Part shown: positions 25,886 through 53,287 of the stretch, piece by piece
How the letters are laid out: each line of letters opens with the position of its first letter
Numbering within the stretch: the stretch's first letter is position 1
Source: Chondrosia reniformis
Taxonomy: Eukaryota > Porifera > Demospongiae > Chondrillida > Chondrillidae
Assembly (NCBI GenBank): GCA_947172415.1
Contig: OX359196.1
Span: 6,821,901 to 6,885,900, forward strand
Reading direction: 5' to 3'
Length of the DNA stretch: 64,000 nt
Notes under the pieces: generated by a model
Database searches by the model: none
What the model saw: only the letters and a program-made list of their open reading frames with translations
What the model was told of the DNA's origin: nothing
Translations under genes and position numbers: made by a program

Positions 25886-26125
25886 AGCCAAGGATTCACA
25901 GAAGATCAAGAAAAAGAAGACTCCCAGGATCACTGATGAAGGGTGGAATTCCCAGAAACAGCTGTCTGACCCAGTGGAGAAGAAGATAAAAGAAAGGAAA
26001 AGAAGAAAGAAAAAACTCCTGTATCTTCATCCAAAGCTCTCTTTAGGTTTAAATCCCATATAGGCTTTTTTACAGAATAGGCATAGCATGTAGGAAAATG
26101 GTATATATTAGATTTTTCATGTACA
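25886..26125. repeat. Dispersed repeat family, copy in B-C spacer
   Basis: About 240 bp from ttcacagaagatcaagaaaa to tagatttttcatg. It is shared with 44556-44790 and 63656-63900, with truncated or partial copies at 8442-8490 and 58605-58680. Class unknown. Confidence 0.8.
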
Positions 26126-26294: not shown

Positions 26295-29200
26295 TTATAG
26301 TGAATCCTCTACTTGTACTTGTACGTTTTCAGCAAATGAACACAAATCCTTTTGAGCCACGGTATTACCCTTTTCAGTCACAGCTGGTTGCAGATGTATA
26401 TCTACTCTTTGAAACTGAAGCTGCTGGGAATCCTGATGGCTTTGGTAGCTACATGTTTGCTCTGATACAAAGTTGAAAGAGCTTGGCACTGTCTTACTCT
26501 CCTGAATAGAAGGATTTGATATAATTTGACCAGTTTCTGTTGATCCAATTGTAGATGCCTTCTTTGCAGCAAACCTTTTGGCAAGAGATTGTGAAGTACG
26601 TCTTCCTAGAGTGGTAATCTTTGTAGCTAGTGTACCAGTCCATCCACTGCTACTTGGCTCCAATGAATGTTTACGTCTCTTGCTCTCACAACACAGAATC
26701 CTCTTCCAGACCTTCCTCACTTCAGCTGCTCTCAAGCAGTAGAGAATGAATATGATTAATCCTTGAAATGCTGTCATTATTGTGAATGCCCATTCAAAGA
26801 TTATATGAACAAATGAAGGCAGTCCTGTGGTAGCTAGGAGTCCAATTCCCCATCCCAGTCCAAAGAGTACTGATAGTCCCATGGCAACCCACAGGTTCTC
26901 TTTCAGCTTGCGGTAGTTGGCTTTCTTGCTGCCTTCCTTCTTCAAGTTGGGTCTTAAAGAAAGGGAGACCATTATGACAATGAAGGTGACCCAGTTGAAG
27001 ATGTAGACCAGTCCAAAAGGGATAATCACTCCAAAGTAGAAGGAGTAATCATAAACACGACAGCTAAGTGGAACATTAAGGGATTTGAAATATACATATA
27101 TACAACTATAGGGTTTGTATGTAATACAATACATTTTTGTGTGTACGTATACACAATAAACTTACAAGTTCTGATGAAAGTAGTTCTGATATCTTGAAGC
27201 TAAGGAGAATGCCACTATGAAGGCTGGAACAACTGAAAGTTTAAAATATGAAATGACATATAATGTTAAAATGCCAACTGATGTTGTATTCTTAAATATA
27301 ATCCATCTTACCCCAGCATGTTGCCATGGCAATAGCTATATATTTTTTGATATCAGGTTTGAACACTTGAACCAGTTTTCGATACAGATTGATAGCCTCT
27401 GCAGTCATCCAGAAGAAGGTAGCCAGGAAGAAGTACTGCATTAAAGCTGATATCACAATGCACCACTGCCACACTGCCATTGAGAAGGTGCTGACTATGA
27501 AGGTAGCATACAACCCTGTGAGGGCTACACAGAGATTAATCAGTAATTGTTTGTGGATCCCTTGTCGAAGTGTCCTAAGTGGAAAACATTAAGATAAAAT
27601 ATATGTTATATGTGATGTATGCTTTATATGGCCCCTCCCACAGGAAATATGTGTTATATGTGATGTATGCTTTATATGGCCCCTCCCACAGGAAATATGT
27701 GTTATATGTGATGTATGCTTTATATGGCCCCTCCCACAGGAAATATGTGTTATATGTGATGTATGCTTTATATGGCCCCTCCCACAGGAAATATGTGTTA
27801 TATGTGATGTATGCTTTATATGGCCACTCCCACAGGAAATGATAGTTAATGTGCAGCTGGTTAGACAATTTAATTACTGAATGATGAAAATCTGATTTAA
27901 TTAAATTATTGTTACATACGTATATGTATGTAGTTCAGCAATAGAGAGAGCTGCATGGTGACTTATATACATACCAGTTAGAAATGAAGATATACGTACG
28001 TAGAACTAGTAAGGATGACCTCCTGTCTAGTTGATTGATTGATTGATTAAGTGATTCAATAACTCTCTGTATATATTTAGGTGCATCATTATACTGGGAT
28101 GGATGATGTGCCTAAAGTGTTTAGAGTTGTCATGATGTGTTCAGTTTCTTCAATATGTATACATACAAGGTTTTAGCTTACTTATCTGCTAAATAAGTCA
28201 CTATTGTTAGAATAAGGCAAATGATGGATACACCTGTTCCAATGTATGATACAGCTGTCAGGAACTGGTTCTGCAATGTAAGATTATCAGTCGGTGGTAC
28301 ATCTGGAAAAATATCCTAAGTATAATGTAAAATACCAACAATAGACAGTACAACATGTTTAAATATAACATGAGTATTGGTATTATATATACATATAATA
28401 TATATATAAACAGCTGCAGCATCTGCTATAACATGTTAAAATCTTAATAGTAGTGCTATTGAAAATTTGGGTCATTTTCAGCTGTTTTGAAATATATAGT
28501 ATGCAAATTTGTACCATATCAACTGTTAAACTATACAAGGAATAGCGCTTATAGCTGCTATTTCAGATAAAACATACCAAAAGAATTGCAAAGTTAGTCA
28601 AGTGATCACATTCACAAACAATATAGTTATTTGTTGAATTAATAAGATCACAACCAGAATTGTCCCAAGCACCAAAGGCACCTAAAAACAAAAAAAGAAA
28701 TGTGTATATATAGAATGTCTCCCTTAGCTGAACTTGTATATACTGTATAAATAGTGTACAGGGTTAATGTATTGTTACAAGTAAAATAAAAAAACATTTA
28801 CAAAAATGATGATGTTAGAAGTAGGAAAGGTGCGCCCAAACAAAGAAGTGTATGTTTAAGTTACTAATTAAATTTCAGTATGCAGTGAATATTCATTAAT
28901 TCGCCCCCGGTTAATCCGCCAAACCACTTAAACCGCCACTATTTCTTGAAATGAATTCAAATGTATGGCAGTAGTATATAGCCATTTTTTCTGAACCAAT
29001 TAGAACTTAGTATGGAATTTGATGATAGATAATCTGCCAAATGTCAAGCTGGACATTGCTGCCACACAGAATGCAACTCAGACCTCACTACTTAAATACT
29101 TACACTAATCCTGTATGATTAGCCTTATCACATAATCACTGTCTTGTTCTATTACTTTTTACAGATGTACTATATAGTCACAGGCCTATTTCTGGTTAAC

Positions 29201-32200
29201 TACTTTTTGAACATTGTAGAGCATCGAAACATGTTTTGGCTTTTAGAAAATCGTACATAAATGGCTGCCAATAACCGCGTATAGCCGAAAATCGCTTCGT
29301 TGAGGTGTTGATTGATAATACATTGGATAGGATATTTTTTCTACCATTCCTAAATAGAGAGTACTACCGTACTCTATGATATATATGCATGTATGTCTGT
29401 ACATTTATGTATTTGCGTGCACACATATATACATACATAGATATATATGTACATACAGTACTGTATATACATGTATAAGTATCAATATAACTGTGCATAC
29501 GTACGATCCAAAGAAAAATTCCAAAATGTACACCTTGGAAAATAACCCTAAAGAATGATTTATATATAAATATTCATACGTATATCATATATACAATATA
29601 TATATACATGTAGTTAATGGTCTATATATGTATATAGTGTGAAAAAGATAAAAGGCATAGATGTATGCATGAAAAATAGCAACTAAACATTTTGTTATAC
29701 CTGATCGTTCATTATTCCCAAAGTAATTGTTACAGCCTCCTCCAAATCAGATATTTGTTGTCCATCTCTAATGATAGAAAATGAAACCACTGCACTTCCC
29801 ACTTCTGTTTCATTTGAGAAAAGCGGTGTGTTATTTCTCTGTTGGAACAGTGTGGCATCAGTATACAAGGCGGCTGAGACACGGAGTGCAGTACTGTTGG
29901 GAATGGCTGATCCCGGTAGAGCTATGTTTGCTAATGGAGGCCCCATGTTAGAGTTATTAACAATGCTGTCAGCAATGCTGGACAGGTCTGGTACAAGGGG
30001 TTTCTCCGGATCTACCATTACTGTCTGCACTTGAAGACCAAAGGATTCTCCAACAAACTGTAAAGTCTCATTTCCCTCCAATGGAACATTTTCAGTAACA
30101 GTCTGAAGAATATCTAGTAATCTGAGAGATGAAAGATAAGTGCTTGAGTAGATGTATTAATTTTGTAAAACAGGTTCATAAACACACATATCATCAAAAT
30201 GGGTATTCAGAAAAAGGACACATGCATATATACCTTGATGAGGAATTTGTATTTTGTTGACTTGTTCTAATTGAATCTTGTGGTGCACTAGCCAACTGAT
30301 CTACTGTTCCCAGTATATCTAAGGTCACCTGTAGATTATATATTATATGTATATATATATATTGTATACGTAGCTAGTATATACATGGCTAACCATTAGT
30401 AAATAGTAATTGCACAATCTCTTGTAAATATGCAGTAAATGTACAATTATACATAGTGATAATGTCCTGAATTTTTCACAATATGACATACGTACATATG
30501 TCAATATTAGATGAGCTGGATGAATAGGAGGATATAATGACAAAAACTCAAACTTACTCTCTCATCTTCCTGAATTTCTGAGGTAGGAATAACTTCCAAG
30601 AGATCAGCACTCAAAGCAACATCTTCAGTTCTCAGTTCTTCTGTGTTGTCTGTAATTGTTACTAAAGCACTCGCCAACTGAGCTCCACTATCAATCTGAA
30701 AAATATCAAAGAAAACGGTGTCTTAAAATGTTAACAACTTTCAAGCTTAAAAGCATAACAAAAGACTATTACAAATTAACAAATTGCTCCCATAGATACA
30801 TTTATCCTTTAAATGTCATCATAATGGCAGAGAAATTGAATTATAAAACACCATAAAAAGCACATAAAAGAATATCATTCCTTAAAGCTGCCATTTTACT
30901 GGATATATATATTGGTACACATCCATATGTAAATGCATAATAATTGTGAAGGTATATATAGATATACAATCTTGTATAGATGTGTATATATATACATAAT
31001 AACTATTATGAGTTGCCCAAACTGTGACATATGCAATTTATGGAGGAGAACTTAGCTACCAACATATAGGTCAATATAACCATGGAGACTTTATAAGAAT
31101 AACTATGGTACACATATATGAGGGAGTTTTGTATATAATTTAAATGTTATAAGAAAAATTAAATTAAACTTTTCTTACATTGACAAGTTCACACAAAGCT
31201 CTAGTCACTCCTGTTAAGTTGCAGTTAGAACATTCTGGATCACTCCATATTGCTCCAGTTGCAAAATCTCCTATACATTCTCTTGTGGCTACCAAATCAA
31301 GATCTTCAAATGTTGTGGAGCTAATACCACACGGACATGGCTGCCTGGATTCCCCACCTATCTCAGTCTCTGGCCAATAAACACCACCAATGTTTCCACA
31401 CAGAGCCTCTTCAGCTGGACAACCATCTACATGTATGTATACAGTACATATATGTATCTATCTACCTACGTACCTATACCTACGTATATACATATAACAA
31501 TACCACATGAGTACGTATTTACATATGTAACACAGAGTGACTTGCATGGACGTACAACTGGCCTTTCACGAAAATTTTGGTGAAGTGCTTTATAATATAG
31601 CATACTTTATAGGATTAAAGTACTCAATCCGTCCACTTTATGGACAACCATCTATATGTATATATACATATACATACTGTATGTATCTATCTACCTACAT
31701 ACATGTCTTGAACATAAACTTACCAAATCTAACTATTTGAGACACTTGAAATGGTTGGTTGATGACTTGAGATGCTTCCTGAACGACCTCTCGCAGCGGT
31801 TCCACCAGTAGAGTGGACAACTGGAGGATTTCCGTGGACTGATCTGTGTCAGTGACAGTGGTCACTAGAAGAACATTATCGGAAGCATCAGGTGGAGAAG
31901 AAACACTTATTATCTCTGATGTCAGAGTACCATTGCCACTCTGAAGTGTAAGCTCCATACCAGATAAGAGGGCATTGACCTGAGATTAAGATGTATAATC
32001 AAGCTAAATAGCTGCATGTACATACATATATGTATATACTTGTATACATACGTACGTATAAATATGTACACACACATACTTTACATAGTGTATATATACC
32101 ATGTACTATTATATACATAATATTTTACAGTACCCACTTCTTCTATAAAACTACTGTTTTCATTTTGCTGTCTTCTCCTTCTACTGGACAAGTCAACAGT

Positions 32201-35200
32201 TACTGCCTGCTGAATAAGTCCTTCAAATATAAAGTATATATACGTATGTATATACGTACTGTACATACACATTCCATATTGATATGTACGTACCTTTAAT
32301 CAAGATTGATGCAGTATTTGAATCAACTATTTTACTAAATGCTATACTGGTGGCTCTGCAGTGGTAAAATCCTCTGTCATTTGGTTGTACAGAATTGATT
32401 GTATACACTTGACCAAACACATCTAATGGCTTATCATCTTTGTACCACCGAATAAGTGGTTCAGGGTTGCCCATTGTCATACAAGATAGAGTTACTAAAC
32501 TAAACAGTGCTACATCTTTGTCTTCTGGACCTTGAGTGATTTCAGGTGGTGTGTTTACGGTGACCTCTATAATGAAATCAAAATTAATATGATTTCCTTG
32601 AATAATCCTATTATTTAGATTATGTGCATATGTACATATGTACATACAAAGAGATGGTGTAAGAAAATTACAAAGTCTATTAGATAATCAGAGTGCAGTA
32701 TAGATCAAAATACAGCCTTGTAAAGTATATGTACAGTACCTCTACAACCTAAAGACACGAGTATAAACATGTTTACCTTCAGAACATGTTTTCCCCGCAT
32801 AGTATCCACTTGAAGAGTCAGTACACATACAAGTAAAGTCATCAATCCCATCAATACAGCGCCCTCCATTTTGACATGGACCAGAATCACAGTTATTAAA
32901 GACTACAATAACATTCCAAAGGTTCACATGATAATGTACACATATGTATCTACATATATACAAATATATGTAAAATATATAGACATACAGTACATCTGTA
33001 CACATTAGGTATAATTCCCTATTTATATTTACTCTATATAGGAATATCATTCTGTGATCTCACCTTTTACCAAAAGGTCAAATTGCCACACATTTTGACC
33101 AATAATGGGAGCCACAACTCCACTCACTGCTCTACAGGAGTACTGTGCAGCATCACTTAACTGCAGTCTGGTAAAATTTAAGGAGCTGGTTCTATTCAAG
33201 ATACCACCACCATTTTCTAAATCAGGGGTGGATGTAACTGTCACGCGTGTTCCATCTCCTTGTAATATAGCTTCATTTCTCAACCATTGTATGGAAGGTT
33301 GAGGTAATCCACTAGCCGTGCATTGGAGAGTGATAGTAGATCCTTCTTCCCTTTCCAGTTGACCATTATGAAAAACAGTATCAACAGCTTCTCTTATAAC
33401 TGAAATAGTTGGTCTCACTGGAAGAGGGTGATTAAAGTATTAAAACAATCTGTAAGTATATATGTATGCCTGTACATAAATATGATGAATTCACATACAC
33501 TTGTATTTCATTTATCAGAACTAGCTGATAAACAGGGACCCAGCCCATTTCCAGTGGGAGGGGCCAGCTTTACCAATTGGCATCTGGCCACCATCATCCA
33601 CAGGACAGCTGTTAATAATCAAAGTGAGAATCAAGTCCAGAAACCTCAAATGCTTAATATATGTTTATACATGCTCTAACTGACCTACTGTATCTACAGT
33701 GAATGTGGGAGATGATGTGTTTCCAATCTCATTCATAGCAACACATGAATATTCTCCAGCATCACTTAAGCTGAAGTTGCTTATCACTAATCTACTTGTT
33801 GCAATTCTGTCCTGAACACTTTCAGATGTACTGATATTTAGGATGGAGCTCTCCTTCATCCAGATTATTGATGGAGGTGGATTGGCAATGGCCTGGCATT
33901 CTACAGTGAGCACTTCTCCCTCAACGACATCACGAATTTCAGAAGGTGTCAACAAGAATGCTGGTGGACCTGGTATTGAATAAATAATTGACATGCAAAG
34001 CAGTTAAACACAATTGACCAGATAGAGAAACTATGTATATGCTCTTTCACATTTTAGTCGAAGACAATATATGCATAAATTCACACATTTACTTCCTACG
34101 TATATAATACATATAGGTATAACCTGTGTACAGTGTATATATATTTGTGTAATATATGTATAAACTATACCCAGTATGGTAATGATAGCTGATGTGCTGT
34201 CTGGACCAAATCTGTTGGAAACTGAACAGTTGTATTCTCCCTCATCACTTCCCCCAACTCCAACAACTGTCAATGTACTGACACTATTGTTACTGACAAT
34301 CTCATACTTGTTAGCAATAGTAGAGATCCTTTCCCCTCTAAATCTCCACACAAACACTGGACTAGGGTCCGCCACTGCAGGACATGTTAAAATGAGACTT
34401 TGACCTTCCACAACAGTTGTGTTCCGCAGAGGAGTGGTTATTTGAGGAGATACTGCATAACAAATGGTTTATGGTTATATATATATATATTGTGGGATTA
34501 AGGTACCGTATATAGTACATATATGTATATAGTTCTATGTTATGAATATTGCAATAAAGCATAACCAATGATATGTAGCTTACCTCCAGTGACCATGAGG
34601 GTAATCTCAGCTGAAGCTGTTCCAACCGCATTGCTAACATTAACACTGTATGTCCCTGCATCTACTCTTCTGGCTCTTTGTATCCTCAATGTGAGTCTGT
34701 CTTCAGAAAACACATAATTATCTCCTTCACCACTTCCTAAGTCAAATGTACCACTACTGCTAGTTATCGTCCACACAATGTCGTCAGGTGAGACTGGAGG
34801 CACAGCTTGTGTGATGGAGAAGGAGAGGACTATGGAATCATCTCTACTAACTGAGACAGATGTTTCGTTATTAGAAACTATCCTTGGTATTTCTGTGAAT
34901 GAAACAGTAAACAGTAATAGATAAAACATGTAGTTTAAATATGATATTACTCTCATTATATACATATACACCTCAGTGAATTTGTAGCTTCATTATACAC
35001 CATAGAAGTGCACATTATGGACATTGAAGCTTAAAGTCCCTGAAATAAGGACACCCCATAACTAGAACATTTAATTTAGACGTTGTTAAAAGTGTCTGGA
35101 TTATAGAGGTTCCACTGTATGTGTTTATATGCAGACAAATCATCTTTCACATATATAGATATATATATGCACACATGCATGCTTAGTGAATTATACACTT

Positions 35201-38200
35201 TACATAATAAATGCATTATACACACATAATACCCCACCCACTCATATGTGAGCAATGAGCCAATGGGTGGAACTACAGTCACACTGTAAATTGTATACAT
35301 TGTAGAATATACCAATTAACTTACTTCTGGATACATTGCTCACTACTCCAGCAAAGCTCCAGCTCCCCAGACCAACACTTGTAGCTGCTCTAACCCTGAT
35401 CGTGCAGTTTGACAGTGAGCTACTGTTACCAGTGATGAATAAGTGAGTGGACATTGTTATGTTATAGTAGATTTCAGTTGACTGGCTGTCTGTGGAATAG
35501 GCTTTGTGAACCTCATAGTATAGTATGATCCCATTGGGTCTGAGAGGTGGTTCCCAGGTAACAAGAAGAGTATCATTATTTATTACCGACAATGACACAT
35601 TTACAGGAGCTGAGGGAACTATATAGTAAAATACCATGTGGATATAATGAAATGGAGATACATAATATCTAAAAACTTTCAAACCTACCATCTTGGAGAG
35701 TTCTGATTTCACTTGTTGAAGAGTTAGATGAGAAATCATGAATGTTTACTGCTATTACTGATATCTTATAAACTGAATATGGCTCCAGTCCACTCAAAGT
35801 GATGGACTCAGTGGGACAATCCAGAGGGTAATAGTCAGAGTACATAGGATGTACTTCATATGTTACATTTGTTGTTTGGTAAAATGTCTCATTAATAAGG
35901 TTTTTAGTAGAGACACCTCGATATGTAACTTCATAAAAGCTAATACCACCAGCAGTTTGTAAAGGACTCTACCATTCTACTTGAAGTGTATTTGCAGTGT
36001 TATTCACAACAGTGACATTGATTGGAGGTGAAGGAGCTATTGAAACAAATCAGAGTCTATATCATACATCCATACATGTCCACAGTTAAGTGTACAAGAT
36101 TATATTTTCTCACCTCCTGCTAGAGTTCTTCCATTAACAGACCTACTGTAACTACTCAAGCCAATGTTATTTACAGCTCTAATGTTGATATAGTAATTCC
36201 AACTTGAATATAAGTTACTCAAGTTAAATGATGTGTTTCCATTAATTGTAATAGTATTGGAGAAGTAACCACGCTGGCAGTTATATATAGAGTAGTAATA
36301 ATAATACGAGGAGCCATATGCATTGCCATAGCAGTATACTTGATAGTGAGTAATGATTCCATTTGACTTGTCAGGTGGTTCCCATGTCAGTAGGAGACTA
36401 GTGTTGCTAATTGATGATATCTTTAGGAAACGTGGAGCTGATGATGGAACTGTAGTACATGCAAACATATACATAATATGTGACATACTGCACATATGTA
36501 CGTACGTATATGTGTAAGCTGCTAATATAATTGCTACTTACCACTTTCAAGTGTTCTACTAAGCACACTTGTATATTTGTCTAATACAGAGACTGATATT
36601 TCATATTCTGAGTATGGTTCCAATGAAGTTATTTTATAAACCATGCTGTTAATGTCAACAGTAGCTTCCATTACATCATAAAATGATCCACTGACTGAGT
36701 TTTCTGAAGATATTCCTCTGTATCTTATTTGATAATATCTTGTATTGTTAATAAGGTCAACCGAAGAGTCCCATTCTACTGTTAAGGATGTTGCAGTCTT
36801 GTCCAAAACAGTTATGTTGAACAAAGGAAAATATCCTGAACAATGTTACCAACAAGAGAGCTTAAAACGTTTATATACTATATATATCTATATGCATCTA
36901 TACATCACCCCATCCATCCATCCATCCACCTAATTATCTATCTACGTATGTCTATAATTGTATTTGACTTACTTTCACTGAACATTAAAGTAACAACTTC
37001 AGATGAGGAATTCCCTTCTCCAACACTTGTCCTAGCAACCACCGTGATTATGTATATTGATAGATAGGTCAAATCTGTTAAGGTTACTTGATTCTTTTTA
37101 GTAATCACTGATTTCACATCTGAACTGTTTGCTGAAGTATTTAAAGTTGTAGTCATATATTCAACCTTGTAGTCAACAATAATTCCATTAGGATTGAGTG
37201 GTAGGTCCCAGAAAACAGATAGCGTAGTGTTATCTATAGCAGTTGCCTTCACATTCACTGGAGGTGATGGAACTATAGGGAAGATATGGCTGTTAACTAT
37301 ATATGTACACATGCAGTCGAGAGAGGCTATAGTAACAGATATAGACATACCATCCTCAAAAGTACTTCTTCTAATGCATGAATAACTGCTGGTATACACT
37401 TCATTCCGTGTAAAAACACAAATTTGATAGTCTGAATATGGTTCTAATCCACTCAGATAAACTGATGTCTCTCTAAAGTTCACACTTAAAGTTACAGAAC
37501 GGTAGAAATTGTTGTCAACTCTATTAGGTGTGAACCGTCCATCATAGTAAACTCCATATTGTATGATAGAACCATGAGGTTGAGGAGGAGGTTGCCATTC
37601 AATCAGCAGAGAGGTAGATGTTTTTATTTGTACTTGAATTGTTTTTGGAGGTAGTGGACCTGGAAAATATACCATACATATAAAATACATCAATGCTAAA
37701 AGTCACATTTAAAGTATGTATAAACTAACGAGTGGTTTGAGATATAAAAGGAGTGAATTCTCCAGGACCAATATTTGTAACAGCTCTTACTCTAAAACTG
37801 TGGGTTGATGATGGAATTAAATTTGTAATGTATACATAGGTACGAATTATAGATATTGATGATATCTGAGAAAATCCATTTTCTTGATCAGTTTCTGCAG
37901 TAGTTTCATTGCCAACATATTGTACTTCATAGTATTGTATAATACCATTTGGTCTAGCTGGTTGAGACCACCAGAGTCCAACTGTACCAGGGACGATATA
38001 AGAAATAGAGCTGTGTAGATTTTGAGGTTCTGAAGGAACTGTATATAAAATAAGCAAAAAGAAGAGAGGATGTAAATATAGATTTAAATATGAACAAAAT
38101 TCAAATGTGGAGGTCCTTGGTGCATGAACATTGTGTTGATCTCCATTTAGGACTAAACTGACAGTTTGATGGTCACGATTTTCTGCTATTTGAAAGCCTA

Positions 38201-40407
38201 TTAGGTCTGATCTCACACAGTCATTCCACCTCATCTTGGGCTTGTATTGTGATTTTTCCTTCTTCTACATAGTCAGCCAAATAGGATTTGCTGTTGTCTC
38301 TGGATTGACCTAACCATTTTAGCACAGTCTAGCTGCTTGCCCATACTACTTGCAGGGGCATAGAGCAGTATGGCCTAGCAACTTTTGTCATTTTCACACC
38401 TTGAACCGATTAATGAAGCAATTGTTGCATAAGCTCAATAGAGTTGGTCACTCTAGCTGTTGACACTTTTATTTGCTCTGAAGGTATTAATGTCACCCTT
38501 AAATTACTACTTCAGAAATTCCTTTAGCAGATCAAGTGAGATGCTACCCTGGGTGTTAGCAAAGCCTCAAAGACAAAGAGCTTCTAAAACATACTTGGGT
38601 TGGTTGTCTACTTAAGGCTGAGCAAGAGGAACTTCCAACTGTGATAGATCCTCATCCAATCACTACATCATGTAGGTCAAGTGCCAAAAGACCATGTTTG
38701 TCCTCTCCTTCATCTTTCTTTAACTGTCCTACCTCACTGATGTGGGATCTTGTACTTTGTAAACAATTACTTGTTTGAGCAAAATCTGGCTTATTTGTTG
38801 AGCTTTCAAAGTCAGCTGAGAAATGTGTGCAAGAATGTCTAATGATGATGGACCTCCTTGGGAGGCACTTCCTTGTTATATTATAAAGTGGCTTGAAAAG
38901 AATTCTGGCAACATCCTTCTCGACTGCATGCAATGACTGAATAACATTTTCAAACCATCCACATGCTGTTTTAAAAATAACTGCCATTGATTATACAAGG
39001 TGTGAAATTGACTTTAGTTGCTAGACCCTATATAAAATTCCTTCATCAAGAGGAAGTATAGGGTCTAGTGGCTAGACTAGTTCCAAGCCAGACTTCAATC
39101 TGGCCCCTTTCCAGATGACTTGCCTGGCATGGGTGACCCTACCAGTAGCTAAGCTATATACCCTCAGTATGACCCACTTGGTTGCATGGAATATGTTACA
39201 TCATCCTCACTATATACAGGAAGGTATATACCCAACCGGTCAGGACATCGCTGTCCATATATCTACGTATATGCTAAAAACTAAATATATATGACTCATG
39301 TTAATTTGGGGAAACAATAGTGTGATTATAAATTTGGTTACATTAAATCTACTTGAGACTTACCTGCTGGTGTGGGTGTGGGTGATGAGGACAATTCATA
39401 TGTTGTTTTAAGTCTTGTAGTCGAAGTGACATCTATGATACATGTCTGACATTCATCAACCGAAGTGTTACTTACAACTATAGATGGAGGTTCTGCAATC
39501 AAAGCTGTTTCAATGTTAGCTCTCTCGGTTGTATCAACTGAAGTTGTATCTATGGGTGTAGATGGAGATTCTGTAATCAAAGTTGTTTCAATGTTAGCTC
39601 TCTTAGATTTATCAACTGAAGTTGTATCTATATGTGTAGATGGAGGTTCTGCAATCAAAGTTGTTTCAATGTTAGCTCTCTCAGATTTATCAACTGAAGT
39701 TGTATCTATGGGTGTAGATGGAGGTTCTGCAATCAAAGTTGTTTCAATGTTAGTTGTCTTGGTTTTATTAACTGAAGTTGTATCTATGGGTGTAGATGGA
39801 GGTTCTGTAATCAAAGTTGTTTCAATGTTAGCTGTCTCGGATTTATCAGCTGAAGTTGTATCTATGGGTGTAGATGGAGGTTCTGTAATCAAAGTTGTTT
39901 CAATGTTAGTTGTCTCAGATTTATCAACTGAAGTTGTATCGTTGAGTGTTGAATTTGCATTGGTGATGCATAATCCTAATGAATGAATTCAAAGAGTAGA
40001 TTATTCTTATAAAACTACTTTTGAACCTAATATATAATAAATTCAGTGGATGTCGGATTAGTAACGATCAAACTTCAAATATCGTCATAACCAAATTTCG
40101 TTCTAAAATTACTACATAATCACTTTTCAAACTTTTCGGGCACACACTGTATCCGAAGATCAAAAAGAAAGCTTATTTTATATTAGTACGTAGGACAGTT
40201 CATAACGAACACGACCAAATTTCGGTTTGAAAAAAACGGGTTTAAGCAATTATTTAACCTTAATTTGGTTTATAACGAACTTTCAGTTACAAAATTTAGG
40301 AAGATCAGTTCTGTACTAATCAATATTATTATTCAATAAATAGAAATGAACACAGACTAACCTAAAGTGAAAAGGAATATAATTTTCCAGCCACAATCCC
40401 TGCCCAT
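26295..40407 (-). CDS. Gene C: adhesion GPCR, near-identical copy of gene B with one in-frame stop
   Basis: Exons: 40407-40362, 39975-39364, 38038-37730, 37659-37351, 37272-36973, 36835-36542, 36449-36114, 36036-35689, 35618-35325, 34892-34584, 34452-34171, 33969-33685, 33417-33064, 32902-32777, 32566-32294, 32220-32138, 31979-31724, 31426-31179, 30695-30558, 30328-30234, 30121-29701, 29547-29505, 28681-28578, 28315-28182, 27574-27312, 27232-27166, 27063-26295. All 27 exon lengths equal those of gene B, giving the same order: signal, Ser/Thr repeats, 7 FN3, Ig, EGF, HormR, GAIN, GPS, 7TM. In exon 8 (FN3-6) the TGG CAG of B is TGG TAG here (35971-35969), stopping the frame at codon 758 of 2365. 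Exon 8 is phase 1-1 and 348 nt, so skipping it would restore the frame. It may be a recent pseudogene, an exon-skipping gene or a sequencing error. Confidence 0.85.
27590..27838. repeat. 48-bp tandem repeat, 5 copies, in gene C
   Basis: Same unit and place as 9902-10104, upstream of exon 25 (starts 27574), but five copies; the last has ggccactccc. Confidence 0.92.
38090..39200 (-). mobile_element. LINE-like relic in intron 2 of gene C
   Basis: Near-identical to 20400-21500, including [12 protein letters not shown] on the minus strand (about 38240-38200). Confidence 0.5.
39465..39975 (-). repeat. Coding minisatellite of gene C (78-bp units)
   Basis: Same 612-nt Ser/Thr repeat exon as gene B, with only scattered differences. 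Confidence 0.88.
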
Positions 40408-41059
40408 TTCTCCCTGAAAATTGTCCACAGCAGTGAAAACTATATATACTGTGCACATATACTCAGCTGAATATATATACTTTAAAGGATCCATAACTAA
40501 CTATATATGTACACATACCTTATACTGTCAGGCATTCTATATATTATATTATTGCTTAACTGACTATACAAATTATGTATAATTGTATAGTGATGTATAT
40601 ATGTATAGGCCTATACATGCTTGCAGCTGTCCACAAATATATACTTTGTGAAACCTGATTGCATTGTAACTTGCACTGTATACCATATACAGTAAGTGTC
40701 GTGAAGTCCAATATACACAATTACAAGCCTACTACATGGGTGACTTGTAATTCACAAAGTATATACATAATAAGTGTAAATAGGCTGTCTGACTACCATG
40801 TATACATGCTCCATATATAGGTATAGCAATCTCAGGTGGAATGGACTGGAACGAACAAATGCTGAACCCGTAACACCCAGTTCACAAGAGGCATGTTGCT
40901 TTATATATAAATAGCTGATAAGCACTCCTACATGAATACATATATCATGTACATGCCATTAGTAATGTTGTGAGCTTTATATATTCCATACATTAACACA
41001 AAGAGAAAACCTTGATGGAATAAAGAATTAGGAGAAACTTGCTTTGTTGACTTCAAGAA

Positions 41060-41221
41060 AGTATTGGAGCGACTACTGTTGCGAGCTAAATAGAGAAGGG
41101 AGAAATGTATTGCTATGCACCCTGGAAGATGGCAGTACCTTCATTCACAAAGAAATTGGCCCCAGTCTGAGCTATTCTCACTGCATGGAAGGAGTGGTGT
41201 TTGACCTCATACAATTTCCAC
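41060..41221 (-). pseudogene. GGH relic: start of last exon, intron and 3' part of exon 6
   Basis: gagcgactactgttgcgagc through tttgacctcatacaatttcc aligns with 51387-51545, spanning the 5' end of GGH exon 7, intron 6 and the 3' part of exon 6. It breaks off at the satellite. It cannot encode an enzyme. Confidence 0.85.
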
Positions 41222-41398
41222 AGGGGCAGGGGAAGGGACAGGGGGAGAGGGAGAGGGAGGGTTAGGGGCAGGGGCAGGGGCAGGGGCAGGGGGAGGGACA
41301 GGGGCAGGTTAGAGGGAGGGACAGGGGCAGGTTAGGGGGAGGGACAGGGGCAGGGGCAGGGACCAGGGACAGGGACAGGGGAGAGGGAGGGGTAGGGT
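41222..41398. repeat. G-rich hexamer satellite inside the GGH relic
   Basis: ggggca/gggaca units in the same relative place (between GGH exons 6 and 5) as the long array in the intact gene, but about 180 bp instead of 2.6 kb. Confidence 0.92.
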
Positions 41399-41478
41399 TA
41401 ACTAACCTCGGTTAGGACGGCTTCGTTGTGGTTGTTCATAGTGATTGGCTCATTCTGTAACAAGCTTAACTCCTCTTT
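41399..41478 (-). pseudogene. GGH exon-5 relic (longest copy)
   Basis: taactaacctcggttaggac through cttaactcctcttt aligns with 54346-54423, covering the intron-5 donor and much of exon 5. Confidence 0.82.
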
Positions 41479-41583
41479 CTTGCTCTCACAGTACAGAATT
41501 CTCTTCCAGACCTTCCTCACTCAAGTAGTAGAGAATGAATATTTGAAATGCTGTATTTATTGTGAATATTTTGCCCATTCAAG
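41479..41583 (-). pseudogene. Relic of an adhesion-GPCR 7TM exon
   Basis: ttgctctcacagtacagaat, cttccagaccttcctcact, gtagagaatgaatat and gtgaatattttgcccattca align with 9005-9125 in gene B exon 27 (last two helices and start of tail, [11 protein letters not shown]...VRKVWKRIL) with small deletions. It lies about 540 bp 3' of the gene D stop codon, the place where a 7TM exon would be expected. Confidence 0.8.
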
Positions 41584-41744
41584 GTACAGTAGTTCCATTC
41601 TGGCAGAACACTGGTGGTCATAACAACAATATATCAATTATACTTCCTTTGTAAAGTATATAACACACTGTAAATATAATAAGGATGAGTATATGGCTCT
41701 AAGGAATACAAAAACAGAACATTCTAAAGTATGCAAAAATATGC

Positions 41745-41880
41745 ACACTGCATGGTATTTCATTGGGGGAGTACACTGCATACTTAGGCCAATAAAGGTG
41801 CGTCAACAAGTGTAAACAATTTTTTGTGAAATTATTGGTATACTCCCCCAACCTACCTATAGACATTTATAGGAAAAGAT
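41745..41880 (-). pseudogene. Piece resembling the PIK3C3-like relic
   Basis: gtatttcattgggggagtac and aagtgtaaacaattttttgt match 7630-7700 and 24675-24745 in the other spacers. The link to PIK3C3 exon 22 is weak here. Confidence 0.35.
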
Positions 41881-42120
41881 CTTGTACATGACACTATGAT
41901 TATTATGCATGATAATACTTCAATACCTCATAGTTATACGATATTGGTGCCCATGAGGTGAATGACCAAATATTCACAAAATATAAAGCATTAATGTAAT
42001 AATATGATGCATATAGTATATATAGCTGATGTTTTTATATACTGTATTGAGCACATGTATACTCCTATAGATAATGTTTTAATGTTTCTGATTCCAATCC
42101 TTGTTGGAAGTTATTTAAAA

Positions 42121-45100
42121 CTACATTTCAGCAGTGACTGATTCATTGGCAAACACTCCTTCATCACTGTGATCTGGTTTGACCATGTTATTATCAAGAC
42201 TGGACCCACCATTAGCTGGTATATTGTCTCCATTAGTGTTTCTAATGACTGAAACAGCTGAATCATTGACAAGACCATTTTCAGTTTCTATAACAACATT
42301 TTTTTGCTTTCTCCATCTACAAAATAGAAAGTAATGTGTATAGCAAAGTTGCAAGTTCTTACACTATTAGGTATACGTATATAGTGTTATGGTGCATTCT
42401 TAATTGTATATACATACATATATTGACTATTAAAATGAAGCGAGACGTTCTCATATGCACCGAAAGTGTGATCATATATGACAAATGTGGTGAAATATTG
42501 CCCCAGTCTGAGAGATGATCTCACTTTGATCATTTTAACAGTGTTCAGATCTCATCAATGTATGTATTGTAAAGTACAGTACATACAGCTTGCCAATTTT
42601 TGGATGCTTCAGAACTTACGCAATAATCACTCCTCCCACAATGGCAATAATAACAAAAACAACAATCACTGCTACTACAATTGGAATGATGATAGCCACA
42701 ATGGCCACAGGGGCTATGGGTGGGGAAGGCTGTTCGTCAAGGACCTATATATGAATATCAAACATCATATCATAGTATGTATATCATATATATAGGTGAA
42801 AATTTATATACTTTGCAATATCAAAAATCAAGTATTAGTTTTGTATATATAATATACATATATATATACCAATACAATTGCAACTTAATGTATACATATA
42901 CGTATATGATAATCATGAGCGATATATATGTATATAGGGCAAATATGAGTAAACATCAAAATGTTTTATCAATGTCTGTGAATGCTGACACCAAGTTTCA
43001 GGCTCATATCTGTCCATTTAACAGAGTTACAACACTAAATGTACATGAAATATTGGTATACCAATTTAATATATGGTAATAGAGATAGGAAAAATTTATT
43101 TCAACATCTAATTTTCCAAAAACTCATTGGACATTGTGGATGTCTATGAATGCTTATATAAGTATATATATATATCTAATCCATAGCCTGCCCCTTGATT
43201 ATATAGCTAATTAATACACTCAAGTTAATGGTGTATATATATATACTCACTGATAACACAGCATAGGTTGTGGCATGGTTACATCTGCATTCCACCTGTC
43301 CATTGGTTGGGAATAATGTCAGACATCCATCTGTCCTAAAAGCTGTTTTATATGAGAATATTATTAGTAGTAACTTTAGCATTCCAAGAATTGTAATTAT
43401 ACAAGACACTTTAGTCTACAAATCTTTATATAATTATATGTATATAAAGATTATATATATGCTTGAAATACGTATGTGTATATATATATACACATATATT
43501 GTTCTACCAGTATATAATAAATATATGTGAATAATATTATACAGCAGAATACTGACCATCTCCTGACTGTCTTCTTGCTCGGCATTCAGATCTTTTTCCA
43601 CTTCCAGCATTCTGTGACTACATTGTTACACACAAAGTACATGTACATATATACAAAGGATGGATATTATACACTCCTTAAATCAATACGTTAATTCTAC
43701 TGAATATAGAGAGTGTCAACAACATGAATGTAGAGCAATTTCCTAAAACAATGCTGAATGGTATACGTATACCCACATTGAGTTTCCAATTGGATGGTTC
43801 TATAATATATATATTCCTACTTGGCAAATGTTCAAATATAATTATATACCTAATAATAATGCATAATAGGAGAAAATTGTCACAGTGTGTCATTTGATAC
43901 AATATATAAATGCTCACCCTATGTCTAATTCTGATTGGTCTTTGAAGGTTTGAAATGCTCCCAATACCAAAGTTAATATCTATGACTTCACCAAGCACAT
44001 CATCCAGAAATGTGATAATACCTCTCCTTCGAATAATTACAATTGTTACTTCAACAGTAATATTTCCAAACACCTCTGCTGGAATACCAATGTCTAATTC
44101 ATTATTGGTTTCATTAGTATATTGAGGACTGTATTCCTCAGTGTCTGGATCAATATTATTTAGATTAACATTTATTTTTGATGCAATAATAGTATCTGTT
44201 TCCACGGTGATGTCTTCACTGAATCCATTGACAAAATTAGCAGCCAAATCAATAATCCTTTAAGAGTTGAAATATTGTCATATAAGTATAATTATTACTT
44301 CAACTTGTAGGTAAGTGTTAAATTGAAAAACAAAATTATTATTAATATAATAGGGGACGTACGTATATCTGGTTTTGCAACACCTTGACCAACTGGTATA
44401 ACAGTAATTATATTGGTCACAGTGCCAGTCACCAATTAATTGGTGCCTATATTGACTGTATAAGCATATAAATGCATATGTTATATAGGCAAATATAGCA
44501 CTATATAGGTCACAGTGCTCCACAAGATATTTATCTTACATGAAAGGATTGAATTTCACAGAAGATCAAGATAAAGATAAAGAAAAAGACTCCCAGGATC
44601 ACTGATGAAGGGTGGGATTCCCAGAAACGGCTGTCTGACCCAGTGGAGAAGAAGATGAAAGAAAGGAAAAGAAGGAAGAAAAGACTCCTGTATCTTCATC
44701 CAAAGCTCTCTTCAGGTTTAGTTCCCCTATAGGCTTTTTACAGAATAGGCATAGCATGTAGGAAAATGGTATATTAGATTTTTCATGATATATGGATGGA
44801 TTGTAAATAATTGTTTGGTTACCTATAGCTACGTATATACTTGCAATGTAATTTGAACTCAAAGCAAAGAGTTTTATATGTATTATAGGACAAGTACGTA
44901 ATACTGTGTATGTTATCTCACATTGCTCCAGTGTCAATATCTTGATGGCTGTCTCGTAAGACATCTTCATCAGCCTCTCTGATAAGCTCATCGGTATTCC
45001 TAATTACCATCTCCTGGGGAACAGAAATCAGAATGAATAAACAATAAGGCAAAATGGGCTCCCATTCATTTCCATAGCAACCGCTAATCATGAATAAACT

Positions 45101-48100
45101 TACGTACAGTTAGATTATTTAAGTCCAGGTCAATTAATCCTTCTGCTATAGTGGCCACATCACTGCCAGTAATATTACTTCCATTTCTACTTATAAGCTC
45201 TTCCAATATTTCTATGACACTCTCACCCTGCAGGTACATGATGCAATAAAACCATTTTACAATACATTCAATGTAAATGTTTCCATTTTGAATTTAATTT
45301 GTATGCTTATGGAAACAATTTTTAAAAAACATACATACATATATATCATGTACATATACGTATGTCATACGTATATTACTATATATATGCAGGACATAAA
45401 ATTATTTCTTGAAAACAGTGTATTATATACAATCTTAAATCTTAAATCTTAGATTCTAAAATACGTAGATCAAAGATATCTCTACTTATTTGCATATCAG
45501 TACTTACATTGCATAGTCTAACTAATGCCATGCCAAGACAATTGACAAAATTGGATGGAGCCCATTCTCCATTTGGTAGACATTGTCTTCTTGCTCTTTG
45601 TCCTGTGTTGCTCTTCATTGGACAAGGACAGAATACAACAGCTTCATCACCAAAAGCTGTCAGGGGCCACTGGACAGTCTCATTGTATTTCTCAGTCATA
45701 AACAGCTCAGATTCTACAGGACAACCATCAGCTACAGAAAACCAAACAAAGGGAGTCACATATAGATATTAATATATGTATGTATACTACTATCACCATC
45801 AGTTTGTTTGTATTAGAGGTGTAACTTATTAGTGTCATTTTCAGCTGATGAAGGTCTACGAACTGAAACATTCTAAAATAATCCAGTAATTGTTTTGCAT
45901 TACTACAGAAAGCTCGTCATTTAGCCACTTCCACATGACATCTAACTTTGGCACAGGTATTGCGCAGTTAACCCAATCCTTCTCATACATATATATTGCA
46001 CATGAATGATTACAAACATGTAGTATATGCACATATGTGATTTATGCTCAATAGTGTGTAAGCACGCTTCTCAGCTTACCAACACATGTTTTCCTATCTC
46101 CAGACAATTTAAAGCCATTATTGCAAGTGCAGTTAAATGATCCTTCAGTGTTGACACATTCTTGATTACATCCATGATCACCATCACATTCGTCAATGTC
46201 TGAAAATAATGTATATACAAATTTAAATTTCCTTACCCCATCCTTTATTATTCTATATAATTTGATTGGAACTTATCAACCTATATAATTTACGTAGATA
46301 TTTCACGGAAAACAGTATAATATGTGTCAAGGTCTGGGAAAAGCATCAAAACCTTAAAATGGACCAAATGACTTTTTCCAAGTCCTGACACACACATGTA
46401 TACATGTACTGTATATATGTACAGGAAGGAACAATTTACCTTGTATATGTATATATGTATTATGCAGTTAACAAGTGGCTTTGCACAATATATGAGTGTG
46501 TACGTCATCCTGTATATGTACATCCATTCTAACCTTGACAGGATGTTTCATTGATTAGAATAAATCCTGGTCTACAAGTACATTCACGTCCACCGGCAAC
46601 ATTGAGACAATTGTGATGACAGCCTCCGTTATTTATAAGACATTCATTTACATCTATTATATTTGTTAAATACAGTACGTATACATATTATGAAGTAACT
46701 GTATATAGCTTATAAATTCTTCAGGAACAATGCATATGTCTATTCTCTATAACATATGGCACCATATATATGTGTTGTACATATATGCACAGCCAATTGG
46801 CCTAAGCCTATATACAGTGGAAGTATATATAAGTAACAGTGTAAGTCGTACACATGCACATACAATACGTATATAAATACAAGAGTATATACCTACCATT
46901 GCATGCTCTTTCTCCCACTTTTATGTATCCTTCAGGACAATCACAAGTATAGCTACCTTTTGTATTGTTACACAAGCTTCTATCAAAGCACATTTGTTCA
47001 CCATTTTGACATTCATCAATATCTACAAATCAAAAGGATTTGGCAAATTGTCCCATTTAATATTATGCAGGGAGACATGTACGTACTTGTAATAATTGCC
47101 TATACATACCTATTGACTACTATACATTGTGAATCACATATATACATGTGTCTAAAGAATGCGAGATTGCAAGCTTTTTTGCCTGCATCCGTAATCTTTT
47201 GATGCGCATTGATTTGACACCTCTGTAATTCTGTATACTATAGGTTCACCTTCATCTAACATTCTTTTAACCACAATGTTTTCTTGTACCTGTAATTTTT
47301 AAATCACCATCTATATATTACCCTTATATTCAATTCATGATATATGATATATACTGGGAGACATACCTTCACAATCAGTTATATTCACAAGTTTAAACCC
47401 AGATCTGCAGCTGCACACAAAACTATCCATTGTGTTATTGCACACATGAGCACACCCTCCATTGTTCTGACTACACTCATCAATATCTATAATTAATGAA
47501 TACATACATAAGCATATTAAACAAGTACGTATATACATATATGATGAGTATAATAGAATTTCATGTGTTCAAGTAAATTAGAAATATTGTAGAAACTGCA
47601 GCTGGCTGTAGAAATACTTCCTAAATCGCAGTGTGGATTCAGGAATTGTACTGATATATACACTGTACATCAGTTGGGAGAGAAGTCATGGAAAAGGACA
47701 AATCCTTCTTGACACTTGTAGACTTGAACAAGGCTTTTGACTCTGTGTCGAGGAATGCCATGCATTGCTTAGCTAGCTAAGGCTTAAGGGAGACTCTAGT
47801 TCCCATTAAGCAAACTTCGGTTCCACCCTTTGTTCGAATCCATCATGCTCCTCATGCAGGATATATTTGTGTGGAGTAAAATCCAGAATCAGAAGATGGT
47901 ACATCACAGCCTTAAGATGAGCTTCAGATCTTAAAGTCCCATATTTGATTATTTGCTCCATTCATCAAGGAATGCAAGCCAGAATACACAATACACAAGA
48001 GGAGATCCATGTTGAAAATGGATTAAGGCAAGGTTGCTACATGACACTAGTCCTAGGTCTACTTAATCTGTGTGTGTTTTGCAGGTTGAATGCTGGCATA

Positions 48101-50931
48101 AAAGGATACACAGCACATTGACTTCAAAGACATTAGTGTTACGTTGAAATTCAAGTCTGACCAGAAACTGTTGCATGAGGAAGTATGCAAGGAATGCAGG
48201 TGACAGGAGCATTAGTGCATTACTTGTATCTACTGGATTAGGAGCAAAGGCATCCAGATCATATAAATCAAAAATTGCTCTGTTTGGGTGTAGGGTTACC
48301 TCAATTTAACCATGACCCGTATGTAGTCCAAGAGTGAGAAGGAGATAATTATTAAGATGGATGAAAAGGAGTGGTATACATACAGTGGCAACTACTTCCA
48401 GAAGAGGATGGGGTCAATATATATGCAGAATTAAGTGTGGAATACAAGACTCTTTTGGCACAAGAACTCGTGATATTTTCAGATTTGTTCTAAAACCGTT
48501 CAAAGGGAAAGCCACAAAAAGATATACTTATAAATCAACCCACGTGATGCTGCTAATGCATAAAGTACAAGAAGTGGTTTAAAAGTAAAGGTGGCATGGC
48601 AGTAGATGCAGCCAGAACCCCATGGATAAGCTAGTAAGTGTGTGTGTGTGCACTTAGGTGTGAATGTAGTCAAATTTCCTGGTCTTAGCTATGTATGTCT
48701 GCATTTAATACATCTACTTGGGACTTACCTATTGGTGTGGGGGTTAGCAAAGGCAGTGAAGAGGACATCCCTGCAGCTGAAGTAGAATCAATCAAGGTTG
48801 TCTCAAATTCATCACTCAAGGTGGCATCGATCAAGGTTGTCTCAAATTCATCACTTGGGGTGGCATCCATCAAGGTTGTCTCAAATTCATCACTTGATGT
48901 GGCATCGATCAAGGTTGTCTCAAATCCATCACTTGAGGTGGCATCGATCAAGGTTGTCTCAAATTCATCACTTGAGGTTGCATCGATCAAGGTTGTCTCA
49001 AATTCATCACTTGAGGTTGTTTCAAATCCATCACTTGAAGTGGCATCGATCAAGGTTGTCTCAAATTCATCACTTGAGGTGGCATCGATCAAGGTTGTCT
49101 CAAATCCATCACTTGAGGTGGCATCGATCAAGGTTGTCTCAAATTCATCACTTGAGGTGGCATCGATCAAGGTTGTCTCAAATTCATCACTTGAGGTGGC
49201 ATCGATCAAGGTTGTCTCAAATTCATCACTTGAAGTTGTCTCGAATCCATCACTTGAGGTGGCATCGATCAAGGTTGTCTCAAATTCACCACTTGAGGTT
49301 GTCTCAAATCCATCACTTGAAGTGGCATCGATCAAGGTTGTCTCAAATCCATCACTTGAGGTTGTCTCAAATCCATCATTTGAGGTTGTCTCAAATCCAT
49401 CACTTGAGGTGGCATCAAATCCATCACTTGAAGTGGCATCGATCAAGGTTGTCTCAAATTCATCACTTAAGGTGGCATCGATCAAGGTTGTCTCAAATTC
49501 ATCACTTGAAGTTGTCTCGAATCCATCACTTGAGGTGGCATCGATCAAGGTTGTCTCAAATTCATCACTTGAGGTTGTCTCAAATCCATCACTTGAGGTG
49601 GCATCGATCAAGGTTGTCTCAAATTCATCACTTGAGGTGGCATCGATCAAGGTTGTCTCAAATTCATCACTTGAGGTTGTCTCAAATCCATTACTTGAGG
49701 TGGCATCGATCAAGGTTGTCTCAAATTCATCACTTGAGGTTGTCTCAAATTCATCACTTGAGGTGGCATTGATCAAGGTTGTCTCAAATCCATCACTTGA
49801 GGTGGCATCGATCAAGGTTGTCTCAAATTCATCACTTGAGGTGGCATCGATCAAGGTTGTCTCAAATTCATCACTTGAGGTGGCATCGATCAAGGTTGTC
49901 CCAAATTCATCACTTGAAGTTGTCTCAAATCCATCACTTGAGGTGGCATCGATCAAGGTTGTCTCAAATTCATCACTTGAGGTGGCATCCATCAAGGTTG
50001 TCTTGAATCCATCACTTGAGGTGGCATCGATCAAGGTTGTCTCAAATTCATCACTTGAGGTTGTCTCAAATCCATCACTTGAAGTGGCATCGATCAAGGT
50101 TGTCTCAAATCCATCACTTGAGGTTGTCTCAAATCCATCATTTGAGGTTGTCTCAAATCCATCACTTGAGGTGGCATCAAATCCATCACTTGAGGTGGGA
50201 AAAGAGAATGGATCTGAGTGATTTGCGGAGGTTGTACATGGTCCTAATAAGTGATTCAAAGTGGTTAATATAATCATTCACATTTATATAATACATACGT
50301 ACATGAATAATTAAAGTGATAAACAGACTGCAGTAAGATATAAATCAGGATGAGTTTGGATTTGATATAGTCATTAATTTTCCACATTCCAAAAAAGTAT
50401 TATATCCCTATACACAGTCTATACCTATGGTATACTTTGCAGTATAATGTATCTTTGTACAGTGCTACATGGGGCAAAATAGCCCTAGTGTGCAAAGCAC
50501 ATGAAGCACTTAAATTAATTAATTGTTAATAATAATAATATACAATATATAGATTGCCTCTATATAAGTCTAAGTCTAAGATAAAAACATTTAAAAATAA
50601 AAGTAGAAGTGGGGATGGCAGTGCTTCCAACAGTCACTAACAAATCTGGAAAAGGTAGCAAAACAAGAAAGGGATCATGTGACAAGGATAACCATGATAT
50701 AGAAGTGGTATATATACTGGAATTTAAGTGACTGAACCATACACATCACTTCCATGTTTGTGTCCTTTGGTATAGCTGAAGTAGGGATTATGTGCCAGTC
50801 AGAGTATATTCTATACTGTAAGTGGCAGATATTCATATAACATTATCCAGAATAGAAACAAGCTTACCAAAAGTGAAAATTAGGCTGATAACCAGGACTA
50901 TTGGTATTTTACAGTCACAAGCCCAGTTCAT
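42121..50931 (-). CDS. Gene D: single-pass HormR-GAIN-GPS membrane protein with four cbEGF domains (7TM-less adhesion-GPCR relative)
   Basis: Exons: 50931-50868, 50243-48729, 47486-47367, 47022-46897, 46653-46534, 46199-46080, 45731-45508, 45227-45108, 45013-44922, 44257-43918, 43611-43557, 43342-43251, 42744-42620, 42316-42121. Phases agree throughout; 3309 nt give 1102 residues. Signal peptide ([14 protein letters not shown]) split as in A-C; Ser/Thr repeats to ~526; four calcium-binding EGFs (each opening D[IV][DN]EC) at 527-688; HormR 689-763; GAIN 764-947; GPS degenerate: the first Trp-containing half is replaced by [11 protein letters not shown], then DGC...[13 protein letters not shown], with HAT in place of HLT; one hydrophobic helix ([20 protein letters not shown]) at ~1007-1038; 64-residue polar tail ending TAEM. 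No further 7TM exon was found before the spacer. Self-cleavage is doubtful. Function unknown; by architecture a surface or adhesion receptor. Confidence 0.88.
44556..44790. repeat. Dispersed repeat family, copy in a gene D intron
   Basis: About 235 bp, ttcacagaagatcaagataa to tagatttttcatg, closely matching 63656-63900 and 25886-26125. Confidence 0.85.
47600..48620 (+). mobile_element. LINE reverse-transcriptase relic in intron 2 of gene D
   Basis: Plus strand reads [19 protein letters not shown] (about 47705-47765), and later [15 protein letters not shown] (about 48010-48055), the LINE reverse-transcriptase motifs (V)DLxKAFDxVxR and NGxRQGC. Stops and frameshifts intervene, so it is inactive. 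Confidence 0.7.
48780..50210 (-). repeat. Coding minisatellite of gene D (39-bp units)
   Basis: 39-bp units encoding [13 protein letters not shown], mixed with shorter SSDGFETT units, fill most of the 1515-nt exon 2. The ETTLI core is shared with A-C. Lengths stay multiples of three. The opposite strand is also open. Confidence 0.92.
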
Positions 50932-52861: not shown

Positions 52862-52897
<36 letters not shown>

Positions 52898-53191
52898 GCA
52901 GGGGCAGGGGCAGGGACAGGGACAGGGGCAGGGACATGGGGAGGGACAGGGACAGGGGCAGGGACAGGGACAGGGGCAGGGACATGGGGAGGGACAGGGA
53001 CAGGGACAGGGGCAGGGACAGGGGCAGGGACAGGGACAGGGACAGGGACAGGGGCAGGGACATGGGCAGGGACAGGGGCGGGGACACGGGGAGGGACAGG
53101 GACATGGATAGGGACAGGGACAGGGGCAGGGACAGGGACAGGGGCAGGGACAGGGGCAGGGACATGGGGAGGGACAGGGACAGGGACAGGG

Positions 53192-53227
<36 letters not shown>

Positions 53228-53239
53228 GCAGGGGCAGGG

Positions 53240-53287
<48 letters not shown>

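Follow-up and report, generated by a model that had tools for sequence, protein, structure and literature searches.

Results

Layout of the locus

The window, i.e. the whole stretch of DNA that was analysed, comprises 64,000 nucleotides of the Chondrosia reniformis genome. It holds an array of receptor genes (A, B and C) and gene D, which adjoins gene C. Contigs of the assembly are designated C5, C6 and so on, and the genome searched amounted to 117 Mb in 15 contigs. The features on which our interpretation turns are the following.

42121..50931, minus strand: gene D, a single-pass protein of the order Ser/Thr-EGF4-HormR-GAIN-GPS-TM-tail, 14 exons, 1104 residues (exon model, with Pfam for exons 4-14)
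48729..50931, minus strand: head of D, made up of exon 1 (50931-50868, signal peptide) and exon 2 (50243-48729, Ser/Thr repeats), with exon borders like those of the A, B and C heads
47486-47367, 47022-46897, 46653-46534 and 46199-46080, minus strand: the four EGF exons of D, all phase 1-1, the last three found by Pfam; with matches on contig C5
45508..45731, minus strand: HormR (HRM) exon of D (exon model and Pfam)
43251..45227, minus strand: GAIN exons 8-12 of D, with RARR in exon 11 and the 13-residue GPS motif in exon 12 (43342-43251)
42620..42744, minus strand: single transmembrane exon of D, phase 0-2, as the TM1 exon of gene C
42121..42316, minus strand: cytoplasmic tail exon of D, 64 whole residues, conserved in D2 and D3
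41754..41896, minus strand: array intergenic element E, of which 41837-41754 has matches at 24755-24670 and 7713-7628; probably left over from the upstream side of a lost unit X
41478..41582, minus strand: relic of the last 7TM exon of an array receptor (ascribed to lost unit X), from matches to B, C and other array genes
41066..41475, minus strand: gene fragment (GGH) with the end of the penultimate exon, a CCCTG intron array and the last exon
40400..41057, minus strand: array upstream blocks and the gene C promoter region, from array matches
26295..40407, minus strand: gene C, the intact adjoining 7TM adhesion GPCR, our reference for the relic and for the phases

Gene D and its relation to gene C

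In the exon model, D runs from 50931 to 42121 with GT..AG introns throughout and a single open frame, and its product consists of a signal peptide, Ser/Thr repeats, four EGF exons, HormR, GAIN/GPS, one membrane helix and a 64-residue tail. The Pfam scan covered exons 4-14, exons 1-3 lying outside it, and detected EGF_CA, HRM before GAIN (28.5 bits, cut-off 26.2) and GPS (26.2 bits, cut-off 22.5). No 7tm_2 was found in exons 4-14, and the exon model stops after one helix, so that the first-pass annotation of D as a one-helix HormR-GAIN-GPS gene is borne out. When a profile of D and its relatives D2 and D3 was compared with solved structures, the HormR part matched latrophilin-1 (4dlq, E 1.8e-4) and CELSR1 (E 0.0023), and the GPS part matched adhesion GPCRs only at E 0.027 or weaker. 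A search with residues 120-537 of the exon 4-14 product in a large protein set with an unstated number of eukaryotes scored 7993 candidates, of which none reached E 1e-3.

Gene C, searched in its HormR-to-7TM part, gave 103 bits for 7tm_2 and 57 bits for GPS, with HRM at 18.6 bits, below the cut-off. From the HormR exon to the TM exon the phases of D are 1-0, 0-0, 0-2, 2-0, 0-1, 1-0 and 0-2, and those of C are equal through its TM1 exon; the phases of C were derived, from HormR onward, from the exon lengths of the model together with one 43-nt exon (29547-29505) read by eye. The identical phase pattern originally ascribed to D and its adhesion GPCR neighbour was thus confirmed for C, from HormR through the first TM exon. 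With the adhesion GPCRs (class B2) of the array, genes B and C, D has in common HormR, GAIN, GPS and the phases to the first TM exon (the phases as compared with C), whereas B and C possess a 7TM and D has one membrane helix, no 7tm_2 and only 23% amino acid identity to C over HormR-GAIN-GPS. The TM1 of C is unlike the helices of D and of its one-pass relatives in sequence. The TM intron of genes C and B holds a tandem repeat (27579-27934 and 9888-10271) with several frames open.

Several repeats were encountered in and around D. Intron 9 contains an interspersed repeat (44555-44787) that is 91 and 96% identical to 25895-26121 and 63664-63900, with more copies around D2 and D3 on contig C5. 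Another, in intron 1 (50640-50796), has at least 59 genome matches including D itself, from the best 40 of 369 candidates scored, and a DNA search with the 5' region of D returned mostly matches to an interspersed repeat. Downstream of the D stop, 42106-42038 gave a 70-bp match at C8:1.17 and 1.20 Mb, which on inspection provided no further lead.

One-pass paralogues and remoter relatives

Full-length relatives of the D body were found on contig C5, where exons 4-14 of D2 occupy 738941-744064 and D3 occupies 766875-772167, along with partial extra copies. D, D2 and D3 have the same phases in all 11 exons compared (4 to 14), and each ends in one TM exon and a tail exon. At the amino acid level D is 76% identical to D2 and 64% identical to D3, with dS values of 0.32 (D-D2) and 0.51 (D-D3). 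The dN/dS ratio of about 0.43 between D and D2 is as expected for a working gene.

The genome search identified HormR exons in eight genes: D, D2, D3, two more on C5, two on C14 and one on C10. In all eight a GPS exon follows 1 to 4 kb downstream of the HormR exon, and in none of them was a 7tm_2 match found within 10 kb downstream of GPS. Three of the five remoter genes (C14:1.95 Mb, C5:1.23 Mb and C10:6.60 Mb) were read past GPS; all three have a GPS exon that closes in phase 0, followed by a single TM exon of phase 0-2 and then by a short tail exon and stop in the C14 and C10 genes and by a tail that is open to the end of the piece read in the C5 gene. One TM exon was accordingly seen in 6/6 genes read among the eight, five of the six being read to the stop. 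D has the arrangement that marks the family, a GPS exon ending in phase 0, one 0-2 TM exon and a short tail exon. A run of the IVVPxVV or IIIPIVV type makes the helix look alike in D, D2, D3 and the genes at C14 and C5:1.23 Mb; the helix of the C10 gene lacks this run. Since D2, D3 and the remoter relatives have one helix, the single-pass state is, as judged from these comparisons, older than D.

The literature searched, with partial coverage, yielded no account of one-pass HormR-GAIN genes of sponges. In Amphimedon, 40 adhesion GPCRs, at least eight of them with HRM, are described in the part of Krishnan 2014 (PMC4302439) available to us, and that part yielded nothing on GPS genes without 7TM; nor does the term "single-pass" occur in the available part of a choanoflagellate GPCR paper (PMC12716839).

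Origin of the D head

Exon 1 and the end of exon 2 of D, each with intron flanks, matched the array heads A, B and C with 0/500 dinucleotide shuffles as good in each comparison. For the start of exon 2 the figures were 0/500 against B and C and 20/500 against A. None of the three head queries matched either of two unrelated targets. The proposed relationship between the D head (exons 1-2) and the array head accordingly stands, with the start of exon 2 against A as its weakest comparison. No convincing match to the D head was found in C5:700001-790000, the 90 kb around D2 and D3, where five of six scans were within 20 shuffles and that of the exon 2 start on the minus strand was slightly above them (36 vs 34), the match falling within intron sequence of the query. 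Exons 3 to 14 of D match C5. Array-like exons 1-2 together with C5-like exons 3-14 place the join in intron 2, and from these matches D is probably a hybrid of an array-type head and a C5-type body joined in this phase-1 intron.

Exon 1 of D agrees with that of C at 89/110 positions, array heads among themselves being 94-98% identical, and the region upstream of D (51386-50966) has no homology to the array promoters. The origin of the D head from unit X in particular is unproven, as the head diverges from the array more than the array heads do mutually.

The 7TM relic past the D stop

Positions 41582-41478 match 9122-9003 in gene B and 26797-26678 in gene C with an E value of about 1e-21. Identity to B/C is 94/100 aligned bases, with gaps of 5 and 11, which shift the frame, and of 9, in frame. 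An origin of this match by chance is ruled out by an alignment score of 133 as against a maximum of 32 in 200 shuffles. The relic lies 539 bp beyond the D stop and on the same strand as D. We can therefore corroborate the earlier observation of a decayed piece of about 100 bp of a 7TM exon of the B/C kind, on the right strand and about 540 bp past the stop; the piece measures 105 bp, and alignment of the 41479-41583 region to the 7TM exon of B, the check suggested along with that observation, gave the 94/100 identity. Splicing of D into an open 7TM frame of the relic is ruled out by stops in all three frames.

Genome-wide, the relic finds its counterpart in the last 7TM exon of seven array genes, of which four lie on C8 and three on C6. 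Over 120 bp the C8 copies show no differences among themselves, and two bases separate them from the C6 copies; to each of the seven the relic is identical at 94/100 bases in a joint alignment, and at 95/100 to the C6 copies pairwise. More receptor copies or arrays of the B/C type were seen at C6:6.24-6.29 Mb, C9:4.55-4.65 Mb, C7:8.00 and 1.90 Mb, and C8:4.34 Mb.

DNA homology between D and D2 stops at 42082, 40 bp past the D stop, which leaves 500 bp to the relic. A further tail fragment on C5 stays alignable with D as far as 42016, still over 400 bp short of the relic. In view of this early end of the 3' homology, and of array element E in between, we reject the relic as D's own tail. The debris beside D is genuinely of 7TM origin, as first annotated, but it has company: an array element precedes it on the 5' side, and on the 3' side come, after two bases, the GGH fragment and then array blocks.

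Intergenic order

The gene represented by the fragment at 41066..41475, and hosting the repeat array at 51759-54351, we take, from protein sequence, to be gamma-glutamyl hydrolase (GGH). The region 51759-54351 contains a 2.6-kb GC-rich array of the CCCTG type in the last intron of this GGH-like gene, and shrunken versions of it, with the exon end, occur in the three receptor-array intergenics examined. Intergenics C-B and B-A have, in sense order, the end of the 7TM gene, the GGH exon end with CCCTG repeats, E, a 71-82 bp block, the promoter and the next gene. The D-C intergenic runs through E (41837-41754), relic (41582-41478), GGH fragment (41475-41066), block (41057-40987) and promoter (40978-40400) to gene C. 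The GGH exon end is present in all three intergenics (58/63, 57/63 and 79/86), with 92 and 90% identity in C-B and B-A, and the last GGH exon is kept, among these three, only between D and C. In the array, E sits between units, upstream of each next gene; the array order would also call for a second E copy after the GGH fragment and ahead of the 41057 block, and none is there. Because the D-C order equals the array order read across one missing gene, the relic is most simply the tail of a lost unit X, most of which (promoter, head, body and TM1-6) is missing.

A weaker extension of E (41896-41843) gave 0/100 shuffles as good against the 3' flank of C and 13/100 against that of B. E can be assigned equally well to the 3' flank of one unit or to the region upstream of the following one, and taken alone it does not exclude that D stands in the slot of a unit. 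The 170-bp gap between E and the relic (41753-41584) resembled neither the 7TM exons of C and B (57 and 58/100 shuffles as good) nor their 3' flanks (19 and 7/100). In the other gap, 42037-41838, a match to the stretch upstream of the B TM1 exon was barely above shuffles (38 vs 36), and a match to the C 3' flank (43 vs 40) is an extension of E. The slot of D as a simple tandem copy of C with its promoter failed as an explanation, the upstream regions of D and of C, B and A being unlike (35, 26 and 58/200 shuffles as good).

Age of the relic

The relic has changed at 6/100 bases (95% CI 2.2-12.6%), mostly on its own branch. Between D and D2, 26/164 fourfold sites differ, and in the alignable intron pieces, four of ten introns having given no match, the difference is 19% over two branches or about 9.5% per branch. 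Set against a dS of 0.32, the 6% would make the relic look clearly younger than the founding of D, but per branch the values overlap. We therefore do not rely on a pure dating argument, and the loss of X may be as old as the founding of D, or younger. Going by the identities, it cannot be as old as the split between the D body and C, since D and C share only 23% identity and the relic is 94% identical to C.

Genome-wide count of GPS exons

At E 0.01 the genome contains 93 GPS exons. A same-strand 7tm_2 match in the 10 kb downstream was found for 65 of them and was missing for 28. With other distances the split was 63/30 (5 kb) and 66/27 (20 kb). These 7TM counts are lower bounds, since exons were scored singly; the 7TM set comprised 111 rows from the scan (150 of 153 candidates scored) and three added from another search. 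One of the 28 GPS exons without 7TM, C7:107097, is a weak GPS match with an internal stop. Contig C5 carries 12 GPS exons and no 7tm_2 match over its whole length at E 0.01, and stands out as a concentration of GPS genes without 7TM.

Discussion

We consider it quite likely that D is an intact member of an old, dispersed one-pass family and that the relic is the tail of a separate, decayed array unit X. On this account the parting of the one-pass HormR-GAIN-GPS family from the 7TM adhesion GPCRs most likely preceded D by a long time. The body of D (exons 3-14) would have come from the contig C5 branch, with an array-type head (signal and Ser/Thr exons) joined to it in the phase-1 intron 2. Unit X would once have stood between D and C, deletion and mutation having reduced it to 105 bp of the last exon, with an upstream element on one side and a 3' flank derived from GGH on the other.

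The first-pass annotation had instead proposed that D was once a complete adhesion GPCR of the array which lost its 7TM here, in a transition to a single-pass protein, and that the relic is the fossil of that domain. The strand, the distance of 539 bp and the phases in common, including that of the TM exon, agree with such a history, but the one-pass D2 and D3 and the remoter one-pass relatives argue against a loss at this locus, and the body of D, at 23% amino acid identity to C, is not array-like. Moreover, a fossil of so old a split would have diverged far beyond the 94% identity of the relic, and D-D2 homology ends at 42082, before the relic and with E in between. We regard this proposal as very improbable. 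A related possibility is that a C5-type body (exons 3-14) landed inside unit X, so that D kept the head of X and the stranded tail of X became the relic, and a replacement of cassettes made an array receptor one-pass. The array-like head of D, the location of the relic and the GGH fragment where the tail of an array unit belongs, and an age of the relic compatible, per branch, with the D-D2 divergence would all be accommodated. This event seems to us unlikely, however, insofar as E, in the array the mark of an intergenic with another unit to follow, separates D from the relic, the promoter region of D is not array-like, and the D head is more diverged than the array heads are mutually.

It could also be argued that the relic was never part of a whole unit and is a short duplication copied from B or C. 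Its length of only 105 bp, and a GGH fragment that starts two bases away at what is possibly a junction, would fit such a copy. The collinear array pieces on both sides (E on one, the GGH exon end, block and promoter on the other) are more simply explained by a shrunken unit, and we hold a copied origin to be decidedly improbable. With a probable decayed unit X beside an intact D, the story of a transition caught in the act is replaced by a testable one. It also illustrates that receptor arrays leave sense-strand debris that can mimic the fossil of a lost domain.

With 28 of the 93 GPS exons lacking a 7TM match nearby, single-helix GAIN/GPS ectodomains look like a stable gene family rather than failed GPCRs, which bears on the role of GAIN domains when the 7TM is absent. 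The one-pass helix occupies the slot of the TM1 exon, with the same phases on both sides, and this would fit an adhesion GPCR cut after TM1 long ago, although phases in common do not alone prove a TM1 origin of the family. As a tentative extension, which we would put at somewhat less than an even chance, the family may derive from an adhesion GPCR cut at the TM1-TM2 intron and fixed in a 1TM form, a separate lineage that might number up to 28 genes in this genome, might pair with the 7TM receptors and would now be exchanging heads with them by exon shuffling.

As to function, D may be a putative two-chain one-pass adhesion receptor or co-receptor, by analogy with known systems. Its EGF/Ser-Thr ectodomain would bind a partner. 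The RARR in exon 11 of D, D2 and D3 is presumably a furin-like site, and the chain may be cut by furin there and at the GPS, giving two pieces that are held together. From these motifs, cleavage of D appears about as probable as its opposite. Lacking a 7TM of its own, D would signal, if at all, via the short conserved tail or by pairing with 7TM relatives; a co-receptor role, suggested by analogy, is doubtful at present. Polycystin-1-like GAIN proteins, as far as described in the sources available, likewise carry GAIN/GPS outside the classical adhesion GPCRs. They have eleven membrane helices, and to our knowledge no EGF-HormR layout occurs among them.

The GPS motif of D carries H-A-T, with Ala where the H-L-T of the array has Leu, and is of the H-X-S/T type as named in the available part of PMC13062082. 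Single-helix forms of adhesion GPCRs are on record elsewhere. The 1TM isoforms of Drosophila Cirl (latrophilin), which arise by intron retention and appear to pair with the 7TM form (Bormann 2025, as summarised in the accessible part of the review PMC13197933), resemble D in placing an adhesion-GPCR ectodomain on a single helix. As described there, Cirl 1TM is spliced from a 7TM gene, whereas D, D2, D3 and their relatives are separate genes with their own tail exon. The E2/EMR2-1TM truncation construct likewise has a GAIN domain on one helix and, unlike D, was engineered from TM1 of a 7TM receptor; the portion of PMC12488864 at hand reports it at the cell surface, the degree of cleavage not being quantifiable there.
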